A stretch of 27,966 bases of DNA from Betaproteobacteria bacterium UBA2293 (GTDB lineage Bacteria; Pseudomonadota; Gammaproteobacteria; Burkholderiales; Rhodocyclaceae): contig DDWF01000243.1 in the NCBI GenBank assembly GCA_002345845.1, forward strand, positions 5,429 through 33,394, written 5' to 3'. The notes under the pieces are model-generated. The model saw only the letters and a list, made by a program, of their open reading frames with translations, was not told where the DNA came from and made no database searches. A program made the translations under genes and the position numbers. Within the stretch, counting starts at the first letter, position 1. The number at the start of each line of letters is the position of its first letter. Shown here one piece after another: positions 1-12,432 of this stretch.

Positions 1-78
1 TTCCCCCGTCAGCCCGTACAGTTGATAGATCAGCGCATCGATCGCCGATTGGTGGTTCGGCTTGAACAAAAGATCCAT
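1..78 (-). CDS. N-terminal fragment of an unidentified protein (runs off the window)
   Basis: On the minus strand an ATG at 78-76 opens a frame that stays open to the window edge, giving 26 codons. The peptide begins MDLLFKPNHQSAIDAL and continues with an LIYQLYGLTGE-like segment. It starts 21 bases after the stop of the upstream histidine kinase on the same strand, so it is probably co-transcribed with it. An in-frame TGA lies three codons before the ATG, so the start cannot move much upstream; a purine-rich GGCGGA lies further upstream and is not an ideal ribosome site. The YxLYGLT pattern recalls C-terminal segments of some DNA methyltransferases, but 26 residues are far too few to assign a family. 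Confidence 0.5.
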   Translation of the reverse strand, partial: MDLLFKPNHQSAIDALIYQLYGLTGE

Positions 79-99
79 CAAAGTTCAAGTGTTTCCGCC

Positions 100-1914
100 C
101 TACAGCTCAATGGTGAAGATTGTCCCTTTGCCCACTTCGCTCTGCACCGTAATCTCGCCACCATGCTTCTTGATAATATCGTAGCTGATACTGAGGCCGA
201 GTCCAGTCCCCTTGCCGACTTCTTTGGTGGTGAAAAACGGTTCAAAAATCCGGGCGCGATGGGATTCTTCAATTCCACAGCCGGTGTCTGCGATGGTGAT
301 GGTTGCCGACGTGCCATCACTACGGGTCGCAACCGTAATCCGACCCTGTTTATCGATGGCATGGCTGGCATTAACCAGCAAATTCATAAAAACCTGGCTC
401 AGTTTCTGCGGATAGCAATCGATCTCCGGCAACTGGGAAAACTCCCGAATCAGTTCAACTTTGTATTTCAATTCATTCCAGACAATATTGATGGCCGTTT
501 CGATACAGGCGTTCAGATCCGAGCGCTTGAGGTCCTCGTGATCCGTCCGTGAAAAAACCTTCAGGTCGGAGACAATTCTTGCGACGCGATTGGTCCCGTC
601 GAGGGACTCGGCCACCAGCGAGCTGATATCCTTCACCACATGATCGATGCGCAAGTCTGCCCGCAACGTATCGAGCTTCTTGATCGCCTCCGGTGGTGCA
701 TGCTGGATGAGCAGCTGAGACAATTCGGACTGAAACTTGACCAGTCGCTCGGCATATTTACCAAGAGTTCCGAGATTGCTGGTGACAAAACCGATCGGGT
801 TGTTGATTTCATGGGCAACCCCGGCCGCGAGCTGGCCGATGGAGGCCATTTTTTCCGCTTGCAGCAGCTGGCTCTGCGCCTCCGCCAGTTGCTGATTGAG
901 CTGCCGGACCTGGGCCAGGTTCGCTTGAAGTTCCGCTTCCTGGCGCTTGCGTTCCTTCAGTTCGGCATCGAGCCGCTGGTTGGCCTCAAGAAGACTGGCC
1001 GTGCGGCTGGCCACTTGCTGCTCGAGCTTTTCCCCGTGCTCGTGCAGGGCACGGTCGCGCGCCTGGACGTGATCGAGCATGGCGTTGAAATTGCCAGCCA
1101 ATTCGGCGATCTCGCTCGGCCCGTCGACCGGCACGCGCTGTGACAGTCCGGCCGGATCGGCGGCAATTTCCCGCATCGTCTGCATGGTCGCCTGCAATGG
1201 CCGGGTAATGCCGCGGGCAATGACTGCAGCAAGCAGCAGCAGGGCGCCACCGATGCCCAGCAGGATCAGCAGGTTCCACGTCGCCTGCCGGTAGACGATG
1301 GCATCGATGTCGTCCACAAAAATACCCGAGCCGACCGTCCAGCCCCAGCCATCGAAGCGCTTGACGTAGGAAAGCTTGGGCAGGGCAGGGCCGCCGGCGC
1401 CGTCAGGCTGCTGGTTGCGTTCCCACATGTAAGTCACGTACCCGTGACCCTGTTGTGCAGTAGCGGCGGCAAAGGCCTCGGTCAGATTGGTCAGGCCGTC
1501 GGTGCTGACGAATGGCCCCGTTGTTCCCGTGCGCACGGCGGTCGCCCGGTTGTAGCGCTCGCCGAGCAAGGGCTGGCCCTCGAGTGCCGGAATGATCGGG
1601 TGCATCAGCATGCGCGCCGGCACCTGGTCGTCGTTGATCCAGAAATAGTTATCGCCGTTGTAGCGCATCGCCCTGATCGAGCTCATCGCCGCCGCCTGGG
1701 CTGAACTCCGGCTCAAGGTGCCGTTCGCCTCAAGCCTGGCGTAATGGGCGAGCACCCCATGGGCGCTTTCCACCAATTGCCGGATCGCCACTTCCTTTTC
1801 CTGCTGCAAGGCGTTGCGCAGCATGACGACATCAACCACACCGGCGAGCAGGATGCTGCCGGTGAAGATTAGGACGATGCTGTGGATACGGGAACGCAGA
1901 CTGAGGTGGTGCAC
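100..1914 (-). CDS. Membrane sensor histidine kinase (cache-HAMP-HisKA-HATPase)
   Basis: This 604-aa inner-membrane sensor kinase probably senses a small molecule in the periplasm and phosphorylates an unknown partner. Visible order: membrane segment about 11-33; periplasmic single-cache-like domain about 35-208, with an NYFWIND stretch and a [15 protein letters not shown] end typical of these domains; second membrane segment about 212-234; HAMP about 235-287; long coiled coil about 283-355; H-box GVAHEINNP with His368; N-box with Asn511/Asn515; G1 box DTGCGI 543-548; G2 box GKGTGLGL 567-574. The start is a GTG at 1914 with no evident Shine-Dalgarno sequence, but the first membrane helix needs a start at or near here. 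No receiver domain is present, and the response regulator is not identifiable next door. The ligand cannot be predicted. Confidence 0.92.
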
Positions 1915-2006
1915 GATGAAGCGGGAGTATTGGTTATCGGCTATGACGAAAGTAGTATCCGCCTTTGGCCCGCCGTGCGCAAATTGCCTGCCGTGACTGG
2001 CGCCGG

Positions 2007-2159
2007 TCAGTTCCCCGCGTTGTGGAGTAGTTCCTCGATGAAAACGAAGACCTCAGACTGAACGCTCAAGGTGTACCGCTTCCGGCGGTTTTTCGACAGC
2101 ACGCCGTCGACCTGCAAGAGCAAAGTGATCAGCGCATGCAGGTCGTTGTCGCGGACAAC
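2007..2159 (-). pseudogene. Coding-like open stretch downstream of the merR gene, possible gene remnant
   Basis: Directly after the TAG of the MerR gene, in the same frame, 50 codons stay open until a TGA at 2009-2007. The conceptual peptide looks protein-like (LHALITLLLQVDGVL, then a basic NRRKR stretch, then SVQSEVFVFIEELL). It contains no ATG, GTG or TTG start, so it is not a free-standing gene. It could be the decayed 3' end of a lost gene or a readthrough extension; the first is more likely. Part of it (2029-2067) is duplicated at 4104-4142. It is also possible that this is simply noncoding repeat DNA that happens to be open. Confidence 0.25.
2029..2067. repeat. 39-bp direct repeat, copy 1 (left of the MerR module)
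   Basis: This 39-bp stretch, beginning AGTTCCTCGATGAAA and containing CCTCAGACTGAAC, matches 4104-4142 at 36 of 39 positions in the same orientation. The two copies lie outside the merR-DUF2938-flavodoxin-DUF2798 module, one on each side. Similarity stops abruptly at both ends of the alignment. Confidence 0.75.
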
Positions 2160-2594
2160 CTATTTCGCGTTCACGGCACCAGATTTTGTTTTCCCCCAGC
2201 GCTTTTCCAGCGCCCCCGTTGCCGCCGCCTTCAAGAGCTTTTGAAAGCTCGGACACTCGACATGGCTTGGCGCCGGGCAAGCTGCGGCATGTCGCAGCCC
2301 ACTGCTCATTGCCCTCAAGCGTTTGATCAGCGCATCAATTTCGTCGGCCTTCGCTGCCAGTAATTGCCTGTCGATATTGGGCGGTCCGTAAGGCGAGAGC
2401 ATCGATCGAATTTCATCGAGCGCCAGCCCCGCCGCTTGGCCAAGGGCAATCAAGGCCAGCTGATCAAGCACGCTTGGAGCGTAGCGGCGCCGCTCTCCTT
2501 TTTCACGAACCGAGGTAATGAGTCCCTTTTGTTCGTAATAGCGCAGGGCCGATGAAGGTATCCCCGTCTGTTTACTGACTTCAGAAATATCCAT
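2160..2594 (-). CDS. MerR-family transcriptional regulator
   Basis: The product is a 144-aa DNA-binding regulator. The N-terminal winged helix-turn-helix is typical of MerR proteins (MDISEVSKQTGIPSSALRYYE, then KGL and RRRYAPSVLDQL). A dimerisation helix follows, and then a short tail with two cysteines, AACPAP and VECPSF, about residues 115-125. The ATG at 2594 is preferred over an upstream in-frame start because AGGGG lies at a good distance before it, and because the upstream extension would run through the operator. Two well-spaced cysteines could bind metal or respond to redox, but the full SoxR iron-sulfur motif is not seen. It is transcribed divergently from DUF2938 and very likely controls that operon and itself. 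The inducer is unknown. Confidence 0.9.
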   Translation of the reverse strand: MDISEVSKQTGIPSSALRYYEQKGLITSVREKGERRRYAPSVLDQLALIALGQAAGLALDEIRSMLSPYGPPNIDRQLLAAKADEIDALIKRLRAMSSGLRHAAACPAPSHVECPSFQKLLKAAATGALEKRWGKTKSGAVNAK

Positions 2595-2605
2595 CAAAAC
2601 ACCCC

Positions 2606-2636
2606 TTGACTTGAAGTCGACTTCAACTTCTAGAGT
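2606..2636 (+). promoter_or_regulatory. MerR-type promoter and operator for the DUF2938 operon
   Basis: A -35 box TTGACT (2606-2611) and a -10-like box TAGAGT (2631-2636) are separated by 19 bp, longer than the usual 17 and characteristic of MerR-family activated promoters. The spacer carries a perfect 16-bp palindrome, TTGAAGTCGACTTCAA, at 2611-2626. It lies between the divergent merR gene and the DUF2938 gene. Activation by DNA untwisting is the established MerR mechanism; its use here is inferred. Confidence 0.8.
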
Positions 2637-2678
2637 GCACTCCAGAGTCTTGTTCGTCAACGTTCAAAGGAGTGCGTC

Positions 2679-3173
2679 ATGGCATCAATTGAAGAAATCA
2701 CGAGGATCGTCCTCATCGGGTGCGGAGCCACTTTGGTCATGGATATCTGGCTGGTGTTCCTGAAACGGATCGGTGTGCAGACCCTGAATTTCGCCTTCAT
2801 CGGGCGTTGGGTCGGGCATTTGTTCCATGGCCGGATTGCGCATGCATCAATCGGCAAGGCATCGCCTGTCGTCCATGAAACCGCGTTTGGCTGGATCACC
2901 CATTACGCCGTGGGCATTGCCTTCGCGTTCCTGCTGATCAGTATTTCCGGTGTCGCGTGGACCAGGGCGCCGTCGCTCGGCATAGCGCTGCTGGTGGGCG
3001 TATGCACAGTGGCATTCCCGCTGCTGGTCATGCAACCAGCGATGGGGCTGGGCGTGGCCGCCTCAAGGACACCCAGCCCAATCAAGAACTGCAGCAGAAG
3101 CCTGATCAACCACAGCGTTTTTGGCCTTGGCCTTTTCCTGTCGGCTTACATCATCGAATGGATTTCTCGATGA
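2679..3173 (+). CDS. DUF2938 family membrane protein
   Basis: This 164-aa integral membrane protein has about four hydrophobic segments (near 7-28, 66-86, 95-118 and 140-160). The central HETAFGWITHYAVGIAF segment and the MQPAMGLGVAASRTPSP segment fit my recollection of the DUF2938 family, whose function is unknown. A strong AAGGAG (2667-2672) lies six bases before the ATG. It is the first gene of the operon read from the MerR-type promoter. Its TGA overlaps an ATG of a possible longer form of the next gene, so translation may be coupled. A role in response to a stress sensed by MerR is inferred from position only. Confidence 0.85.
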   Translation: MASIEEITRIVLIGCGATLVMDIWLVFLKRIGVQTLNFAFIGRWVGHLFHGRIAHASIGKASPVVHETAFGWITHYAVGIAFAFLLISISGVAWTRAPSLGIALLVGVCTVAFPLLVMQPAMGLGVAASRTPSPIKNCSRSLINHSVFGLGLFLSAYIIEWISR

Positions 3174-3220
3174 ACGCCTATTCCCCAACGAAGAAATCCA
3201 ATTCTCCCGGAGTCAGTGAA

Positions 3221-3796
3221 ATGAAAAAACTAGCCGTCATCTACCACAGCGCCCATGGCCATACCGAGCATATTGCCCAGCATATCGCCGAGGGAGCACG
3301 AGACATCCCTGATACCGAAGTTCATCTCGTCAGGGCCGAGGAACTGACCTCGCAGCCCAACAATCTGCTTGAGTTCGATGGCTTGCTCCTCGGCTCACCA
3401 ACCTATCTGGGCGGTGTTTCGGGGACCTTCAAGAATTTCATGGATTCGACTGGCGGGCTGTGGCGCACGCAGCAACTCAAGGGGAAACTAGCCGCCGGCT
3501 TTACTGTTTCTTCACTTCCGGCCGGTGACAAGCAGTCGACATTGATTTCCTTGTTCACCTTCTGCATGCAGCACGGAATGCTGTGGAGCGGCAATCCCAT
3601 CCTCCCGGAGCAACATCGCGGCGTTCCCTATGACGAAGCCGCTAACCGCCTGGGCTCATGGTCCGGCTTGATGGCTCAGGCCGGACATTCGTCGGCTGCT
3701 GACGCCTTTGTTGCTGGCGACATCAAGACAGCCAGGATGTTTGGTCGCAACTTTGCCGAGACGGCCCGCCGCATGACAAACGCAACGCAAAACTGA
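3221..3796 (+). CDS. Flavodoxin-like / NAD(P)H-dependent oxidoreductase family protein
   Basis: The 191-aa cytoplasmic protein has the flavodoxin fold: a first strand KLAVIYHS followed by the FMN-phosphate loop SAHGHTEHIA (about 10-19), and a second flavin loop GSPTYLGGVSG (58-68), as in WrbA-like and related flavoproteins. It probably reduces quinones or another electrophile using FMN, though the substrate is unknown. The start at 3221 is chosen because GGAG (3209-3212) lies eight bases upstream; an alternative ATG at 3170 overlaps the DUF2938 stop and would add 17 residues. It sits between two membrane proteins of unknown function under a MerR regulator, which suggests a response to redox-active or electrophilic compounds. 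Confidence 0.85.
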   Translation: MKKLAVIYHSAHGHTEHIAQHIAEGARDIPDTEVHLVRAEELTSQPNNLLEFDGLLLGSPTYLGGVSGTFKNFMDSTGGLWRTQQLKGKLAAGFTVSSLPAGDKQSTLISLFTFCMQHGMLWSGNPILPEQHRGVPYDEAANRLGSWSGLMAQAGHSSAADAFVAGDIKTARMFGRNFAETARRMTNATQN

Positions 3797-3810
3797 TCAG
3801 GAGAAACCTC

Positions 3811-4038
3811 ATGATTCCCAAAAAATATGGGCCTGTTTTATTCAGCCTGCTGCTTTCCGGAATGATGTCGCTCCTGGTTTCCGGGATCGCCACGCTGCGT
3901 GCTGCCGGCCTGGTTGATGGCCTTCTCGATCTCTGGATGTCAGCCTGGATTACCGCTTGGCTGATCGCATTTCCAACAGTCATGCTGGTCGCCCCATTTA
4001 CGCAGAAAATCGTCGGCACTCTGGTGACGAAAACTTAA
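3811..4038 (+). CDS. DUF2798 family small membrane protein
   Basis: The 75-aa protein has two hydrophobic segments (about 8-30 and 44-65) separated by a short polar turn, and a start MIPKKYGPVLFSLLLSGMMS that fits DUF2798, a family of small two-helix membrane proteins of unknown function. AGGAG (3799-3803) lies seven bases before the ATG, and only 14 bases separate it from the flavodoxin-like gene, so it is the last gene of the operon. A perfect palindrome begins 12 bp after its stop. Confidence 0.82.
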   Translation: MIPKKYGPVLFSLLLSGMMSLLVSGIATLRAAGLVDGLLDLWMSAWITAWLIAFPTVMLVAPFTQKIVGTLVTKT

Positions 4039-4050
4039 GTGCCCGTGTAA

Positions 4051-4088
4051 TTGCCAGAATATTGCGGTCGACCGCAATATTCTGGCAA
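4051..4088. repeat. 38-bp perfect palindrome, copy 1
   Basis: The left arm TTGCCAGAATATTGCGGTC (19 bp) is followed directly by its exact reverse complement, with no loop. The core from GAATATTGCGGTC onward (26 bp) recurs at 8965-8990, and the right flank GGCAAAAACC is also shared. It starts 12 bp downstream of the DUF2798 stop. In RNA it would form a long hairpin without a following U-run, so it is not a standard intrinsic terminator. It may be a dispersed intergenic repeat, a protein-binding site or the border of an inserted segment. Confidence 0.85.
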
Positions 4089-4103
4089 AAACCTTCGCCG
4101 CTC

Positions 4104-4142
4104 AGTTCCTCGATGAAATCGAAGGCCTCAGACTGAACACTC
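4104..4142. repeat. 39-bp direct repeat, copy 2 (right of the MerR module)
   Basis: This stretch matches 2029-2067 at 36 of 39 positions in the same orientation. It begins 15 bp after the 38-bp palindrome. Read on the minus strand, both copies encode an SVQSE(V/A)F(V/D)FIEEL peptide in one frame, but the upstream sequences differ and that frame is closed upstream in this copy. Confidence 0.75.
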
Positions 4143-4237
4143 GTATTCCGTGTTCACGGAAAGAAAAATCGAACTGATCGGCGTCTTCAAGCCTGTTGAG
4201 CTTGCTGGCGAATTCGAACCAATTTGAATCCGGTCCC

Positions 4238-4456
4238 TCACGCCCCAGGCTTGACCTGATCGTCCGCATCCGCTGCCAGTTGCGGCATCTGCTCAGCCTT
4301 TTCTTCGAGCGGCCGCCCCGGCACCCCGCAACGACCCCGCCGACAACTCCCCGGTGCGGCAATGTCAATGCCATCCTCGTTCATGTTCTTCAGCAGCAGA
4401 TAGACCGCCGCCAGACCGGCGAGAAGGAGGACGAGGGCGATGAGGATGGAGAGCAT
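4238..4456 (-). CDS. Small single-pass membrane protein of unknown function
   Basis: The 72-aa frame starts with a clear hydrophobic helix (MLSILIALVLLLAGLAAVYL, about 1-22), followed by NMNEDGIDIAAPGSC and a basic, cysteine-containing stretch (CRRGRCGV, about 38-45), and ends in a charged soluble tail. The organisation of one membrane anchor followed by a GSCxxGxCGV-like motif resembles small unnamed proteins I associate with related betaproteobacteria. I cannot assign a function. No good ribosome site precedes the ATG, and both flanks lack convincing genes, so it appears to stand alone. The paired cysteines could bind a metal. Confidence 0.55.
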   Translation of the reverse strand: MLSILIALVLLLAGLAAVYLLLKNMNEDGIDIAAPGSCRRGRCGVPGRPLEEKAEQMPQLAADADDQVKPGA

Positions 4457-4978
4457 GGTGGTGGTTTGGGAGGCGGCGGGGTTTGACTATATCGGTTTCG
4501 AAGGGATGGAGGACGCTCTTCGGCCAAAACGGCCGTTAGCCCAGAACACCGAATCGGGCAGGAATGCGCCGCGTACCGGCCATTCGACCTTGAATGGCCA
4601 CGAATGACAGCTTTTCTATCTGGCCAATGCGTATTCTCGACCCACAGCGGACCTACGCGACATCCCGGCTTCTACGGCTGGTGACAGAGTAAACCGGCCG
4701 TTCATGGCGACTGCTCGACGGCAAGTCGTCGGCCAAAGCGTCCTGTCCGTGCTCTGCTTATGTGCGACCGCTCCCGCCCCGGAGCGCCACTTCCACCGCA
4801 AAGATCCGCAAGCCCCGATAGCCAAGTTTAAAGCCGACACCATGCAACTTTCCGCTTGAGTCGTGAGGACATTGTCGTTGTACTTGAGAACGTCCAGGTT
4901 GAAGGTTTCACGCGTGAATCGTTCGCTACGAATGCCCGCAGCTATCTCGTCACGCAGCGACGAACAGGTTACATTCCG
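4457..4978. other. 522-bp stretch without a convincing gene
   Basis: No frame here reads like a protein. Visible structure is limited to an 8-bp inverted repeat, GGCCATTC / GAATGGCC with a 6-nt loop (4578-4599), and a 10-bp palindrome AACGGCCGTT (4528-4537). The stretch looks like degenerate intergenic DNA downstream of the large nuclease gene. An open frame on the plus strand entering from 4856 is only the antisense of that gene's 3' end. Confidence 0.5.
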
Positions 4979-7900
4979 TCAGAATTCAAGAATGTCGTTC
5001 GGTCGCCCGACATGAGTCCCTTCCAGTGCAGCGATCTGCGACTGCGCGTAAGCGACTGGGGATACACCGCTGAAGACAAGCCAGGATACAAGCTCAGGAT
5101 CTGTCACGGACGTGAATCTAGCCATGTCAGCGAGGTTCTCCCGTGCGAGCGCTACACGCGTCAGATGCTTTTTGAGTTTGTCTGGTTTGCCTTTTATGTC
5201 ATCGCCCTGGTACTCGGAGAGTTGGGAGGCGACTTCCGAGTAGTTTCGGGCAAGTGAAAGATCCTTGCATTCGACTATGAGTATCTGATTGCGGTCCGGA
5301 CGCCAAACGAGAAGATCAATGTCGCCTGGGTTTGTTGGCAGGTTTCGCCTTAGGATTTCCGGAAAGCCAATGCCGCGCCGAACAGTCCATCCAGCGTTGC
5401 GGAGTTCCCTTTCCAGGGTCTTTTCGAACGTATGTCCTTCCCGAGCTTCCCCCAGCCAGTCGTCCCGCATCCCCTCCGTACGGAAAAACTCTCGTTTGAG
5501 GCGTCCCGTATGCGCCCCATCGAAGATGTACTGTAGGGATTTGCGCAGGAGCCCGGGCGCTACGATCACCAACGGATCATGGCTATCGTCCACCTTCAAC
5601 AAGGGGCGGGCTGCAACTGATAGGCGTCGACCAAACCGCCAAGGATAGATGTCGGAAAGGTCAAACCCGTCTGGCACCGCATCCCACTTCGGACGCGTGC
5701 TGAGCACGAACTGGCCTAGGAGCGCGCCAGCAACGTTGTTGTCGAGCTCGGCCGACTTGCCTGCGACCTCCAGTTCGCTCCATTTCATCGCGAAAATCGC
5801 CGAGTTTTTCGCCATGCCGATTGAGTCGAGAGCATGGACAAAGCGTAAGCCGTCTTCGAGCGTAAAGCCCATCTCCGCGTTCCATAATGCACGGAAGGTC
5901 TCGGTATCATGATCGATCTTGGCGTCGTCAGCACAGTCTTCCTCGTCGGAAACGTCTTTCGTCGCGTCCGCCTTTGCGTAGTGCCGCTCGAATTGTGCCG
6001 CATGCGCTTCGAACTGCTCGTTGGTTGCCTTCGACAGCAGGGGTTCGAGCACCATCTCCCCGAGCTCGTCGCGGAAGAGGAGGTCACCCAGGGAAGAGAT
6101 CCCGACTTCGGCAGACAGCGCGCCGAAGCGTACCGCGTCCGACATGCCGCCGATGCGAAAGAGAAGTGACGCACGTGCAAGAAGACGACCGAGCGCCATG
6201 TCAGAGGGCTCAATCCCACCAGTTGAGGGGCATACGCAGAGGGCCAGCTCGATGACTAGCCGGGAGGTCAGTGCTGCGCCGGCGTAACGTCCCAATTGGT
6301 TAGCAATCGTCTCCTCGACGCCGTCCTCCCCGGCATGCAGGCCGAGGACGGCAGCGGCTGTGCGGTGCCAGAGTTTCTCTTCGTTGCGGGCCTGTTCGCA
6401 GTTCTCAAGAAGACGTATGAGGGTCTTCTTGCGATCAAAACGGAGAAGCTCGTCCTGCATTTCATGGAGGAGCACATCAACGACGTCGTTGAGGAGCTTG
6501 CCAACCGCCATCTTGCCCTCGTACCGTGCAGGAGCATCGGCTGCAACCGCACGCCACCCTAGCTCGATCCGGGCCGCACCCGACTCGACGTTCTCGATGG
6601 TCAAAAGGCGGCTGGTCAGCGAACTGCGGACAAAGTCACTGAAGTCGAATGATTGCATGAGGTGGAAACTGCGCGCGGTGTCATTGGGAACCGCGATCTG
6701 CTCCACTGCGATCGCTTGGTCGCTCGGTGAGTCGAGTCGAAGAAGGGTCGCAAACGCGGCGCCGAGTGCACGCACAAGGGTACGTTCTGCACGGTTGTCC
6801 GGAGCGCGAAATCCGGCAAGGTACCCATCTTTGAGCACCACCCGAAACGCCCCCTGTTCACGGACACGCTCGAGTTGCCAGAAGGTATTCAGATCACGGG
6901 GAACTACCTCGCCCTCAAATCGGTGAATGTCGTCGCTGCCTGCAAAATGCAGGTAGACCTTTACTGACCTTCTGGTTGTCCGCTCATCCAACGTTTCCAA
7001 TGCTTCGCCAATCCGCCCGATCCACGTGCGTACCATTTTGGCAAGTTCGATGAGGAGCCCGCGATCTTTCATGCTAGGGGCTTCAATAGTCACCCAGAGG
7101 TTATTCCGTCCCTCATACACACAGGTCAGACGTTGTGCCTCAAGGTCATCAATAGAGGCGTAGCACTTGCTTTCGCGTTCAGTCGGAAAGAAATCCTCCG
7201 CAGAGGGCCGCATCACCCGGTGCCATTTTCCACTGTTGTCTTTGGTTCGGTGTCGGTCATACCCAATGTCTGCCGCCATACGTACGTCACGGAGCAGATT
7301 CGTCGGAATCATCAGCATCAGCGGGCGCTCAGGCGTGATGCGACCTTCTGGTAACTGGTCGTGGGGAACCATGTGGCCGCCATTGCTGCGTACCCAGCCA
7401 AGAAGGTTGAGAATGCCGTTAACGTTGATGATTTTTACACCGGCTCGCTCAATTAACTGTTTCGCATCCTGCACACGCCAGAAGGCAAGAGGGGACATCT
7501 CAGACAGAGACCCTATGCGGACAAAGTCTGCACTAGACATCCACTCGAGTTGCCAACCCTCTGGCAATTGAGGCACCGTGCCGGCAAAGCCTGCCCCCCA
7601 GCCACAACCAACACGCACAACCATGCCGCGCTGGAAGCCGGGCTGGTTGGAAAGGTCAACGGCGGTCTTTACAACGCCGGCATCAAGGAAGTGCGCAGTC
7701 TCTTCGTCGAGCCGGAGCATGTTGCGGAAACCAGTGCTCTGGTGCTGCTCCATGGAGGGCAAGACGAACTGGAGCACCATAAGGTGGCCCACATCGACCG
7801 AGGAGACGGCGATTGCCGACTGGGTTGTGTTGTGCTGCCGCCAAGATAGCCGCAAACCGCCGCGGCCTCCGAAGACCGGCGTTTCGAAGAAGGTGCGCGC

Positions 7901-8785
7901 ATGAGCATTGGCCAGTGCCCTGTCGAGGTTACTCAGCTCTCCAGTCTGCACGGCGAATGCAATCACCGCATGGCGAAGAGCGATGGAAAGAGCTGTGGGC
8001 AGCACGACGACAAGGCCCTCCCGTGTGCGTATAAGCGGTCGCTGCTCTAGCAGTCCCGCCCCGGGCTCCTGGTTTCCGAGGGTGGTGATCTTTGCGTGAT
8101 CGAGAATGAAGAGAGCAAGGTCTGCGACTGCTATGTCCGCCGCTCGTAGCATGGCATTGGTAAACATGACACGTGAGCGGAGCACGCCCGCATCTTGGCC
8201 GCCGGTATCAAGCGAGTCTGGAGTGTCTTCACTACCTGGCTCGAAACGGTGGAGATTAGAGCGAGCACAGACGACATCCGATAGGCGAAGAAGCGCCTGT
8301 ACAGCGCGTTTGAGCGGACGAAAGCGGCCGGTATCGGGCATGTCGAAGACAATGTCGACCATCAGTTGCGTATAAAAGCCTGCGGCCTCCCACACCCCTT
8401 CCAGGACGCGGTAATCGCCCCTCTCGTTCTCAACAAGAGAGACGAACACATCTTCTGCCGGGTCCTCCCAACTGACACACTTCGAGGCGCCTAAAGCTGC
8501 ATGCCAGCGCCGCGTATCGTCGACTGTTGAAACCTGCCGGCCCTTGCAGTAAATGAGGGCAAGGGCAGCGAGAAACTCAAGTCGCAAGCACTCGGCCTGG
8601 TGCGCCGGTAGCGTGAGAAGGCTGGCGAGCAAAGCCACAGTACCATCCCGTTCGAAGCTGGCAAGTTCGACGACAAGTTCAGCGTTGTCCTTCGCGATAT
8701 CCTCGAACGAGTGGTCCCAAGAGATCTGCTCGCTCATGATTCCAAGTTGAGCGTGCAAATCCGTCTGAAGGTGGCGCTCGTTCAC
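4979..8785 (-). CDS. Very large protein with C-terminal PD-(D/E)XK nuclease domain
   Basis: The product is 1268 aa from a GTG at 8785, chosen because GGAG lies six bases upstream; a TTG at 8797 and an ATG at 8737 are alternatives. The C-terminus carries a restriction-endonuclease-like fold: a helix with [10 protein letters not shown] (about 1119-1128), a GDIDLL strand with Asp1155/Asp1157, an IVECKD strand with Glu1172 and Lys1174, and a QLSEY helix giving the RecB-type Q-x3-Y motif (Gln1188, Tyr1192). About 1100 preceding residues are soluble, mostly helical-looking and unrecognised, with an acidic linker near 945-960 (DEEDCADD). I see no Walker A motif, helicase motifs or methyltransferase motifs. 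The gene is alone, between two copies of a palindrome and next to gene-poor DNA. A DNA-cleaving role, perhaps anti-phage, is inferred; no restriction partner is visible. Confidence 0.88.
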
Positions 8786-8964
8786 GTGGGACTCCAAGAA
8801 AGATGATTACGCTAGCCCGATTTCACTTGAGGCGGAGATAGGAGAGTGGAGCAATTTAAAGTGAATCAGACGACTGCTCCTAGCTGCGGATAGCGGCCAT
8901 TCTATTTCTTTAGCATCAACGACCGCAAAGGCCGAAAACCAGACCGAACATGCTGAAAACCCCC

Positions 8965-8990
8965 GAATATTGCGGTCGACCGCAATATTC
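8965..8990. repeat. 26-bp perfect palindrome, copy 2
   Basis: The arm GAATATTGCGGTC is followed by its exact reverse complement. It is identical to the core of the 38-bp palindrome at 4051-4088, and the right-hand flank agrees over GGCAAAAACC apart from one base between the arm and the flank. It lies 25 bp downstream of the stop of the LuxR-type regulator (minus strand) and about 180 bp upstream of the nuclease start. The remaining part of this 230-bp gap holds no gene I can support. Confidence 0.85.
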
Positions 8991-9015
8991 AGGCAAAAAC
9001 CGCCAGGGGCCAGGT

Positions 9016-9969
9016 TCAGCCTCCCCGCATCTTCCCCATCGCCAGATTGGCCGCCGCCGTCCGCGTTTCGACCCCGAGCTTTTCGTAAACATGCTCCAGG
9101 TGCTTGTTCACTGTGCGCGGGCTGCTGCCGAGGATGTCGCCGATGTCCTTGCTGGTCTTGCCCTGGACCACCCAGTAGAGCACTTCGGCTTCGCGCTGGG
9201 TGAGGCGGAAGGCGGCGATCAGGGATTCGACGGCGGAGGCGTCGTTTTCCTCGCGCAGGACGACCAGCCATTCATCGTCGCCGGTCTGGTCGTGGAAGGA
9301 GGCGAGCAGGCGGCGCTGGCCTTCGGCGACGAGCAGGGCAGCCGGTTCGCGCTGGTCGTGGTGGGCGGCGTTGGCGGCGGCGATCCAGGCGAGCAGTTCT
9401 TCGGGGGCGACGTGTTCCGGGTTGGCGAAGTAGTCGTTGAGCAGCTTGCGGGCCAGCGGTGTCTGCCAGACGATCTTGCCGTCGATGGCGCGGACGGCGA
9501 CGGTGGCCTGGCCGAAGGCGTCGAGCGCGCTGCGCGCCTGCTTCATCTGGCGGGCGTTCTGCATGTGGGCGGCGATGCGCGCCAGGACTTCGGCCGGGCG
9601 GATCGGCTTGGTCACGTAGTCGGCGCCGCCGGCCTGGAAGGCGGCGACGACGTGCTCGGTTTCGGTGAGACCGGTCATGAAGACGATGGGGATGTGCTGC
9701 GTGCTGAAATCGGCCTTCAGCCGGCGGGCGACTTCGAAGCCGTCCATGCCGGGCATCAGCGCGTCGAGCAGGATGACGTCGGGCAGGCTCTGGCGGGCGC
9801 GCTGCAGCGCCGATTCGCCGTTGGTGGCGACGAGCACGGTGTAGCCGGTCTCATCGAGCGCATCGTGCAGTAGCGAGAGGTTTTCGGGGATGTCGTCCAC
9901 GATCAGGACGATGTCGGAAATCGTGTCCCGGAAAGGGACTTCCTTCGGGGCGTGGTCAACTTGGTTCAT
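9016..9969 (-). CDS. LuxR-family response regulator (receiver + PAS-like + HTH)
   Basis: The product is a 317-aa cytoplasmic transcription factor. Receiver domain about 17-135: acidic pair Asp25/Asp26, phosphoacceptor Asp69 in ILLDALMPGMDG, Thr/Lys switch residues FMTG (97-100) and Lys121. A central segment about 148-245 looks PAS-like (AIDGKIVWQT). The LuxR/NarL helix-turn-helix occupies 256-310 (LTQREAEVLYWVVQGKTSKDI, then SPRTVNKHLEHVYEKLGV). The ATG at 9969 starts a product that begins just before the receiver; longer frames upstream add only non-conserved sequence. It follows the 121-aa unknown gene by 25 bases, probably in one transcript. The kinase partner is not adjacent. The NCS1-transporter hybrid kinase at 18435-21803 is a plausible candidate, but this is inference. 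Confidence 0.9.
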   Translation of the reverse strand: MNQVDHAPKEVPFRDTISDIVLIVDDIPENLSLLHDALDETGYTVLVATNGESALQRARQSLPDVILLDALMPGMDGFEVARRLKADFSTQHIPIVFMTGLTETEHVVAAFQAGGADYVTKPIRPAEVLARIAAHMQNARQMKQARSALDAFGQATVAVRAIDGKIVWQTPLARKLLNDYFANPEHVAPEELLAWIAAANAAHHDQREPAALLVAEGQRRLLASFHDQTGDDEWLVVLREENDASAVESLIAAFRLTQREAEVLYWVVQGKTSKDIGDILGSSPRTVNKHLEHVYEKLGVETRTAAANLAMGKMRGG

Positions 9970-9994
9970 GGAGATTTTGCAAACTGCCGCAGGG

Positions 9995-10360
9995 CTAGTT
10001 TTTCTTGGCGTTGCGCTCGCGCACGATGGGCGGCACGTATTTGACGGAAAACTGCCAGCCATCCGGCGTGGCTTTCAGCAGCAGCGATTTCGAGTTGGCA
10101 CCGGGCTCGAAAACCGGCTCGGTGATGAGCATTTCGACGGCGCCGATACCTTTGATGACGCAGGCGCCAGGGAGCGTGACGAAGACCGATTCGGCGGCGA
10201 CCAGGATGAACTGGCCGTCCTTGCTCTCGGAGCAGGACAACCCCTTGGGCACGCTCGCCGGATCGAGTTTCCAGGCGGCGCGCAGGGCGTCGAGGCCGTT
10301 GATCAGTTCGGCGGTGGTCTTGATCGCCAGACTCATTTCGATGGATTTCGTTTTCGCCAT
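9995..10360 (-). CDS. Conserved-looking hypothetical protein, 121 aa
   Basis: I do not recognise this protein. It begins MAKTKSIEMSLAIKTTAELING, contains LRAAWKLDPASVPKGLSCSE, and ends in a basic RERNAKKN tail. There is no signal peptide or membrane helix, so it should be cytoplasmic. A strong GGAGG lies nine bases before the ATG, which supports it as a real gene, and codon use resembles its neighbours. It precedes the LuxR-type response regulator by 25 bases on the same strand, so the two are probably one operon. Confidence 0.75.
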   Translation of the reverse strand: MAKTKSIEMSLAIKTTAELINGLDALRAAWKLDPASVPKGLSCSESKDGQFILVAAESVFVTLPGACVIKGIGAVEMLITEPVFEPGANSKSLLLKATPDGWQFSVKYVPPIVRERNAKKN

Positions 10361-10424
10361 GCGCTTGCGCCTCCGTGGTGTCGCCGCGCCATTCTAGTTG
10401 CCAGCGTCGATCACGGCACGGTTT

Positions 10425-11114
10425 CTATGCTTTTCCGGCGAACAGTTCGATCTTGCGGGTCGGTCCGGAGATGATCAGCAGGTCGCCGGGCAAGATGCGG
10501 CTGCTTGGCGTAGCGTGCTGAAAATCTTCGTGGGCGCGCTTGATGCCGACCACGGTGACGCCGAATTTCTTGCGGATCATCGATTCGCCGAGCGTTTGCT
10601 GATGCGTGCTGGTAGGGGCGTGAATCCTGGCGATGGCAAAGCCGTCGTCGAATTCGATGAAATCCATCATCCGGCCGCTGATCAGATGCGCTACCCGCTC
10701 GCCCATGTTGGCTTCGGGATAGACCACGTGATGGGCGCCGATGCGTTCGGCGATCTGGCCGTGTTCGGCGGTCAGCGCCTTGACCCAGATATCCTTGATG
10801 CCGAGTTCGGTCAGCACCATCAGCGTCATCAGGCTGGCGGCGATGTCGGTGCCGATGCCGACGATGGCGTGCGTGAAGTCAGCCACGCCCAACTGGCGCA
10901 TGATCGCGGTGTTGGTCGAGTCGGCCTGCACGGCGTGGGTCAGCAGGTCGGCCCATTCGCGCACCAGTTGTTCGTCGCGGTCGATGCCCATGACGTCGTG
11001 ACCAAGGCGGACCAGCGACTGGCCGACGGCGCAGCCGAAACGGCCAAGGCCGATGACGACGATGCTGTCGCCCTTGGCAAAGGAAAATTGTTCGGTGAAT
11101 AGTCTAGCCAACAA
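10425..11114 (-). CDS. ktrA: Potassium uptake regulatory subunit KtrA/TrkA-type (RCK)
   Basis: The product is a 229-aa peripheral cytoplasmic subunit that gates the KtrB channel. It has an RCK_N Rossmann domain with the nucleotide-binding GLGRFG (22-27) and the acidic strand end GIDRDE, and an RCK_C domain in the last 80 residues (LGESMIRKKFGVTVVGIKR, then LLIISGP). The single RCK_N/RCK_C pair is the KtrA architecture, whereas TrkA has two. The start is a TTG at 11114, with GAGGAG seven bases upstream inside the end of ktrB, so the genes overlap by 11 nt and translation is likely coupled. Longer frames upstream give non-conserved sequence. Confidence 0.88.
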   Translation of the reverse strand: MLARLFTEQFSFAKGDSIVVIGLGRFGCAVGQSLVRLGHDVMGIDRDEQLVREWADLLTHAVQADSTNTAIMRQLGVADFTHAIVGIGTDIAASLMTLMVLTELGIKDIWVKALTAEHGQIAERIGAHHVVYPEANMGERVAHLISGRMMDFIEFDDGFAIARIHAPTSTHQQTLGESMIRKKFGVTVVGIKRAHEDFQHATPSSRILPGDLLIISGPTRKIELFAGKA

Positions 11115-12432
11115 TGGGATGCTCCTCGGGATAGCGGAAAGGCATGCGTCGTTCGCCCAGGGCCAGCGACGCGGCAAGGGTGATGGTGCCGACGCGGCCG
11201 ACGTACATCAGCAGTGTCAGCATCAATTGGCCGAATGGCGGCAGGTCGGCGGTGATGCCGGTGGACAGGCCGACCGTGCCGAAGGCCGAGATCACCTCGA
11301 AGATCACCTTGTCGGTCGGCAGGTCGGTGCAGCGCAGGATGGCGATCGAGCCGAAAACGACCAGCGCGCTGCCAAGGACCAGGACGGTGATCGCCTGGCG
11401 CTGGGCGGAGGCGCTGACCCGTCGTCCGAAGGCTTCGCTGTCGCTGCGGCCGCGGATTTCGGCGATGACCAGCAGGGCCAGGATGGCCACGGTGGTGACC
11501 TTGACGCCGCCAGCCGTGCCGGCGCTGCCGCCGCCGACGAACATCAGGAAGTAGTGCAGCGCCCAGCTTTCGTGCGTCAGGGCGCCGATATCGACCGAGT
11601 TGAAACCGGCGGTGCGCGCGGAGACGGAGGCAAAGGCCGCCGACAGCAGTTTGTCGGCCAGCGTCATCGGCCCCAAGGTGGCCGGATTTTTCCATTCAAA
11701 GACCAGCAGCACGAGAAAGCCGCCGAGCAACAGGACAGCGCTGGCGAGCAGTGTCAGCTTGGTGTGCAGCGACCAGTGGCGGGAATCGCGGCGCTTGGCA
11801 CGCAGGTCGTGCAGGACCGGAAAGCCGATGCCGCCGACGACGATGGCCATCATCACCGGCAGCAGGATCATCGCGTCGCTGGCATAACGCACCAGGCTGT
11901 CGGGGTGGATCGAGAAGCCGGCGTTGTTGAAGGCTGAAACGGCGTGGAACAGACCGCTCCAGGCTGCTTCGCCCCAGGGCAGGTCGTAGGCCAGGTGCAG
12001 CCGCAGCGTCAGCAGGAGGGTGACGGCCAGTTCCATGCCCAGCGTGACGCCGAAAACCAGCCGCGCAACGCTGCTGACGTCGCCCAGTCCGAGCGTATGT
12101 GTTTCAACCTGGCTGATCAGTTTCGAGCGCAGGCGCAGCGAGCGATTGACCATCAGGCCGAGCAGCGTCGCCGCCGTCATCATGCCAAAGCCGCCGATCT
12201 GGAACAGCGCCATGATCGTCCACTGGCCGAAGGTCGACCAATAGGTACCGGTGTCGACGACGACCAGTCCGGTAACGCAGACCGCCGACACGGCGGTGAA
12301 CAAGGCGGTCAGCCAGGGGGCGGAGACACCGTCGGCTTGTGCCTGGGGCAGCATCAGCAGCAGCGTGCCGGCAACGATGGCCAGCAGGAACGCCAGGGCC
12401 ACGCTCTGGCTGGGGTGGAGCAGGGATTTCAT
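11104..12432 (-). CDS. ktrB: Potassium transporter KtrB/TrkH family
   Basis: This 442-aa inner-membrane potassium channel-like transporter (Ktr type) works with the KtrA subunit encoded immediately downstream. The four pore loops of the superfamily are visible: VCVTGL (51-56), FNNAGF (168-173), ARTAGF (272-277) and FGTVGL (384-389). The glycine-rich intramembrane gate GGGSAGTAGG occupies 300-309. Length and the single-RCK partner favour KtrB over TrkH (about 480 aa). The ATG at 12432 lacks a strong ribosome site. It is transcribed divergently from the metal efflux operon, 279 bp away. Confidence 0.9.
   Translation of the reverse strand: MKSLLHPSQSVALAFLLAIVAGTLLLMLPQAQADGVSAPWLTALFTAVSAVCVTGLVVVDTGTYWSTFGQWTIMALFQIGGFGMMTAATLLGLMVNRSLRLRSKLISQVETHTLGLGDVSSVARLVFGVTLGMELAVTLLLTLRLHLAYDLPWGEAAWSGLFHAVSAFNNAGFSIHPDSLVRYASDAMILLPVMMAIVVGGIGFPVLHDLRAKRRDSRHWSLHTKLTLLASAVLLLGGFLVLLVFEWKNPATLGPMTLADKLLSAAFASVSARTAGFNSVDIGALTHESWALHYFLMFVGGGSAGTAGGVKVTTVAILALLVIAEIRGRSDSEAFGRRVSASAQRQAITVLVLGSALVVFGSIAILRCTDLPTDKVIFEVISAFGTVGLSTGITADLPPFGQLMLTLLMYVGRVGTITLAASLALGERRMPFRYPEEHPIVG

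Follow-up and report, generated by a model that had tools for sequence, protein, structure and literature searches.

An Upx anti-phage gene in an apparently variable chromosomal slot of a Dechloromonas/Azonexus-like bacterium

What is a large protein with a nuclease tail doing on its own in a betaproteobacterial genome? The question is raised by a stretch of 27,966 nt from Betaproteobacteria bacterium UBA2293 (contig DDWF01000243.1), here called the window, in whose numbering all positions are given unless a relative is named. It encodes a 1268-residue protein in which a sequence-only reading had seen a lone accessory protein, possibly anti-phage, with a PD-(D/E)XK nuclease tail and a body unlike any family known to the reader. 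We find it virtually certain that this protein is Upx, and we consider it highly probable that the locus as a whole is best explained by a known single-gene anti-phage system, upx, gained horizontally into a variable slot. This explanation draws on whole-length family membership, the fold, intact catalytic residues, a sporadic distribution and the defence genes that accompany homologues.

4979..8785, minus strand: upx coding sequence, 1268 amino acids, GTG start at 8785 and stop at 4979; matched by PDLC02221, NF042954 and PDB 9wuf_A
8792..8795, minus strand: GGAG, a likely ribosome-binding site 6 nt upstream of the upx GTG (identified by eye)

The reading frame is real and had been placed correctly, though its strand had been left out. 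An upstream TTG offers an alternative start (8797 to 4979, minus strand); the GTG is consistent with the N-termini of aligned homologues.

The identity of the protein is carried by matches along its entire length. The PADLOC profile for Upx (PDLC02221) was matched in full at 2247.6 bits and was the sole family returned at E-values up to 10, and the NCBIfam equivalog 'anti-phage protein Upx' (NF042954) covered nearly the full protein at 2043 bits against a cutoff of 1900. The sole relative found by sequence in the Protein Data Bank (PDB), 9wuf_A, aligned over residues 3-1268 at 2014 bits; its chain is named 'Restriction endonuclease', and the fold library gives the entry the title 'Cryo-EM structure of Upx', released 2026-02-11. 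A predicted model of residues 40-1239 superposes on 9wuf, and therefore shares the fold of the solved Upx. A protein search scored 7994 candidates and returned 179 homologues at E-values up to 0.001; in the table of the best 120, several bear the source name 'anti-phage protein Upx', for example those from Pseudomonas, Providencia and Paraperlucidibaca. Homologues in the table also carry the tag PF28173.1, a family that the Pfam-A scan of the window protein did not report; that scan gave just HSDR_N_2 over the nuclease core, below threshold (E 0.18). Since the PADLOC, NCBIfam and 9wuf matches include the body, the claim that it belongs to no known family was mistaken, and the protein is not novel. 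The functional guess of a lone accessory protein, probably anti-phage, with a PD-(D/E)XK tail was right, and databases already call it Upx. Upx is an already named, structurally solved single-gene defence, and the find is therefore an ordinary one, with nothing new in its identity.

The catalytic part of Upx lies at its C-terminus, where the predicted structure contains the nuclease fold that had been anticipated from the letters.

5069..5440, minus strand: C-terminal PD-(D/E)XK nuclease domain, residues about 1116-1239; VIA-align matches at model positions 1077-1200
5210..5323, minus strand: catalytic core, D1155 to Y1192; D1157, E1172 and K1174 invariant in alignments

The VIA-align neighbours of this domain include XisH (scores of 6.8-7.2), Hjc (5.9-6.6), Cdn1 (6.2) and McrBC (5.7-6.1); higher scores went to two uncharacterised proteins (8.2 and 8.7). 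All six core positions named beforehand (D1155, D1157, E1172, K1174, Q1188 and Y1192) are correct for the GTG start. D1157, E1172, K1174 and Y1192 are each present in 72 of 72 aligned proteins and D1155 in 69, whereas Q1188 occurs in 46, so that the core proposed earlier stands except for the conservation of its glutamine. Across the 38 loci of a genome scan, counted with Upx alone as the query, D1157, E1172 and K1174 were again invariant (38/38 each), with D1155 in 37 and Y1192 in 29. The PD-(D/E)XK core of the window Upx is intact.

The preceding residues, about 1100 in number, gave weak fold matches in two places.

7385..7939, minus strand: possible second, degenerate PD-(D/E)XK-like domain, residues about 283-467
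6674..7138, minus strand: possible zincin-like domain without HExxH, residues about 550-704

No HExxH occurs within residues about 550-704; the motif was found in 5 of the 72 aligned sequences, always near residue 522 and hence outside this stretch. Tentatively, the body might combine a dead PD-(D/E)XK-like domain (FokI/Nt.BspD6I/RPB5-like) with a zincin-like domain, which would make Upx a tandem of a dead and a live nuclease fold carried by a scaffold made up largely of helices; the dead copy would then read DNA and gate the live one. If true, this would provide a testable division of labour inside Upx. These possible domains are the sole lead beyond the known facts about Upx, and a description of them may already exist from those who solved 9wuf.

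Homologues of Upx keep company with defence genes, whereas the window copy does not. Their neighbourhoods, which the sequence-only reading had proposed to inspect, were sampled at 20 of the 38 loci by taking open reading frames (ORFs) of at least 180 residues within about 7 kb of upx. They were called longest-first, which lets in some that are not genes, and made up two sets, of 67 and 85 ORFs (152 in all). At E-values up to 1e-10, the two sets matched 46 and 234 PADLOC families, respectively, and the best 25 families of each set include retron-type reverse transcriptases, PD-Lambda-4, Mokosh, MADS, type I restriction, Septu PtuA, PD-Lambda-2, SIR2, HerA, a CBASS cyclase, Avs3a and a type IV enzyme, some with an E-value as low as 0. 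By comparison, 72 control ORFs (14 from the window, without Upx, plus those of six related loci) matched 4 families, with a best E-value of 2.7e-14; the control is not host-matched, and the counts are of families, several of which can match one ORF. Six distant relatives from Hyphomonas, Nitrospirota and acidobacterial genomes (L030, L032, L035-L038) are 26-28% identical to the window Upx and retain D1157, E1172 and K1174. Four of the six were scanned, and the PADLOC Upx model covered all four nearly end to end (506-746 bits); the Upx family is therefore broad, and we dropped the idea that its most distant relatives fall outside the model. According to PMC12629846, Upx is confined almost entirely to a single hotspot of PAGI-1 islands. 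Separately, a single contig of Paludibacterium denitrificans carries two upx loci (L027 and L029), each apparently broken up across several frames, which could reflect sequencing errors or decay.

How did upx come to be at this locus? Its surroundings were compared with those in G413, the closest relative found, whose corresponding locus is L070.

4526..8955, no strand: variable slot, with upx here and other genes in G413; synteny with L070 is lost at 4525 and 8956

Window positions 2029-4525 match L070 5798-8218 at 91%, and 8956-12261 match L070 14721-18001 at 94%. Between these flanks G413 has, without Upx, an NYN/OST-HTH protein, a Mutator-family transposase, a RecG-C-terminal-like gene and proteins without a Pfam match; by eye, the RecG-like gene (L070 10529-13248) seems to be interrupted by the transposase. 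In another relative (G418), the kinase of the left side and the regulator of the right side are separated by a KaiC-like and a GGDEF-EAL gene; in G410 the left side matches the window over 272 bases only (78%) and the content differs, and in G412, G405 and G368 the DNA left of the regulator does not match the window. The region thus looks like a variable slot rather than a dedicated defence slot. Upx was matched in none of 76 genomes of the genus of the closest relative, and in 1 of 395 genomes drawn from the family, by a single weak, partial and unconvincing match. Because the slot of the closest relative holds other genes and none of the genus genomes matched, horizontal gain is suggested; most likely, a Dechloromonas/Azonexus-like bacterium took upx up into a variable slot of its chromosome. 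The guanine-plus-cytosine content of the insert (57.6%) sets it apart from the right flank (64.8%) only, the left flank being at 57.3%. In the plasmid collection, six records matched in part, each over less than 80% of the query, and window 1-8999 had no near DNA match; in the phage collection Upx was unmatched. What the locus offers is one intact Upx in a lineage where hardly any others were found, together with a clean slot comparison.

Several points weigh against this explanation. No sigma-70 promoter-like site was listed in 4050-9010 (a scan result that says little), and PADLOC recognised no defence neighbour of upx when run one by one on 16 window proteins. The genus search had no positive control, which makes its zero weak evidence of absence; the closest four homologues listed (85-92% identity) lie on contigs without a named host, so that Upx may occur elsewhere in the lineage. 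The only report of activity found is indirect: a table in PMC10855318 enters Upx under nuclease activity systems by referring to Gao et al. 2020 Science (its reference 19). One could ask whether the gene serves its host as a housekeeping nuclease of recombination or repair rather than as an accessory defence gene. We regard this as extremely improbable: in relatives the locus is occupied by unrelated genes, homologues are spread thinly across many phyla with defence genes nearby, and we reject it on the near-absence of matches in genus and family, with the caveat that the search lacked a positive-control genome. It is also conceivable that upx travelled as one mobile unit with two flanking palindromes, moved by them.

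4051..4088, no strand: perfect 38-bp palindrome, not part of upx; also in G413 without upx
8962..8996, no strand: second, slightly imperfect copy, not part of upx; also in G413 without upx

Copies do stand on both sides of upx, and the right synteny break (8956) falls almost at one of them; however, the left break (4525) is about 440 bp from the other, G413 has both palindromes at the corresponding places with other genes between them, and the 16-bp palindrome core is present 19 times in the G413 genome. A mobile unit of this kind therefore appears very unlikely, and on the G413 comparison we reject the palindromes as ends of an Upx element: the flanking repeats noticed earlier exist, but their reading as part of a unit of upx's own is not supported.

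How Upx would act is a separate matter from what it is. An anti-phage role is very likely, and it is probable that the effector step is nuclease cleavage by the C-terminal domain. Upon infection, the body of about 1100 residues may recognise nucleic acid of the phage, or a state that the phage induces, and then release or position the PD-(D/E)XK nuclease, which would cut DNA. As its main target we slightly favour phage DNA over that of the host. The literature searched, whose coverage leaves out most subscription journals, held no account of an Upx mechanism and, from 2022 on, no paper combining Upx, cryo-electron microscopy and phage. Alternatively, Upx could act by abortive infection, a triggered nuclease destroying the DNA of the host, or other nucleic acid of the cell, so that the infected cell dies or is arrested. 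A PD-(D/E)XK tail on a large body would also suit such a suicide nuclease, and among the fold neighbours of the domain are Cdn1 with cA4 and a DNA nuclease of type III CRISPR that cyclic oligoadenylate activates. However, the same list contains Holliday-junction resolvases as well as McrBC, enzymes that target particular DNA, and judging from sequence and fold we hold abortive infection to be a serious but somewhat less favoured possibility than cleavage of phage DNA.

The palindromes deserve a description of their own. They share the core TTGCGGTCGACCGCAA with variable, often self-complementary arms, and are dispersed in a few related genomes: the 16-mer is present in only 5 of 297 family genomes, and its reversed control was absent from those five and found in one other. 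In L070 copies lie near 5757, 7800 and 14736, and some copies elsewhere lie inside genes (L075 and L081, seemingly the same gene, by eye). No exact 26-mer match was found in viral contigs. Both window copies fold well as RNA hairpins; as terminators they were rejected, with no run of T after either (by eye) and neither listed by a terminator scan of 4050-9010. They could be protein-binding sites or a repeat element. A 39-nt direct repeat (2029-2067 and 4104-4142, 92% alike) brackets a block of MerR, DUF2938, FMN reductase and DUF2798 genes, which in G413 is flanked on both sides by palindrome plus repeat, as if this had moved or duplicated the block.

These four genes and a Cache/HAMP histidine kinase lie to the left of upx; on the right, a LuxR-type response regulator and TrkA are accompanied by an AcrB-type transporter and a gene that by eye is TrkH-like. 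Proteins of Dechloromonas, Azonexus and Zoogloea share 86-89% identity with the response regulator, and others up to 92%, which makes a Rhodocyclaceae bacterium the probable host. Among the 16 window proteins PADLOC gave three weak matches in two: mad1 in the MerR regulator (E 2.8e-8, 39 residues), and CARF3 (E 5.6e-10, the best) and PD-T4-6 (E 1.3e-9) in the response regulator. We read these as shared DNA-binding or receiver domains. Rfam matched no family in the window. Upx is encoded alone, without a recognised partner gene.

This solitude separates it from the better-known restriction systems. Neither the methyltransferase or specificity partner of classical restriction-modification nor the McrB GTPase partner of McrBC, nor any helicase or other restriction partner, was recognised among 10 window neighbours (Pfam) and the 16 proteins given to PADLOC, in keeping with the sequence-only reading, which had seen no methyltransferase, helicase or ATPase partner. 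Shedu (SduA) consists of one gene with a PD-(D/E)XK nuclease, and is thus alike in outline; yet PADLOC at E-values up to 10 gave Upx alone, though HMMER filters drop weak matches. With Upx as defined by PDLC02221, NF042954 and 9wuf, the window protein shares a whole-length match, equal length, fold, catalytic residues and encoding as a single gene. The Salmonella homologue (P0042), whose N-terminus resembles that of the 9wuf chain by eye, is 68% identical to the window copy and sits in another host and another neighbourhood.
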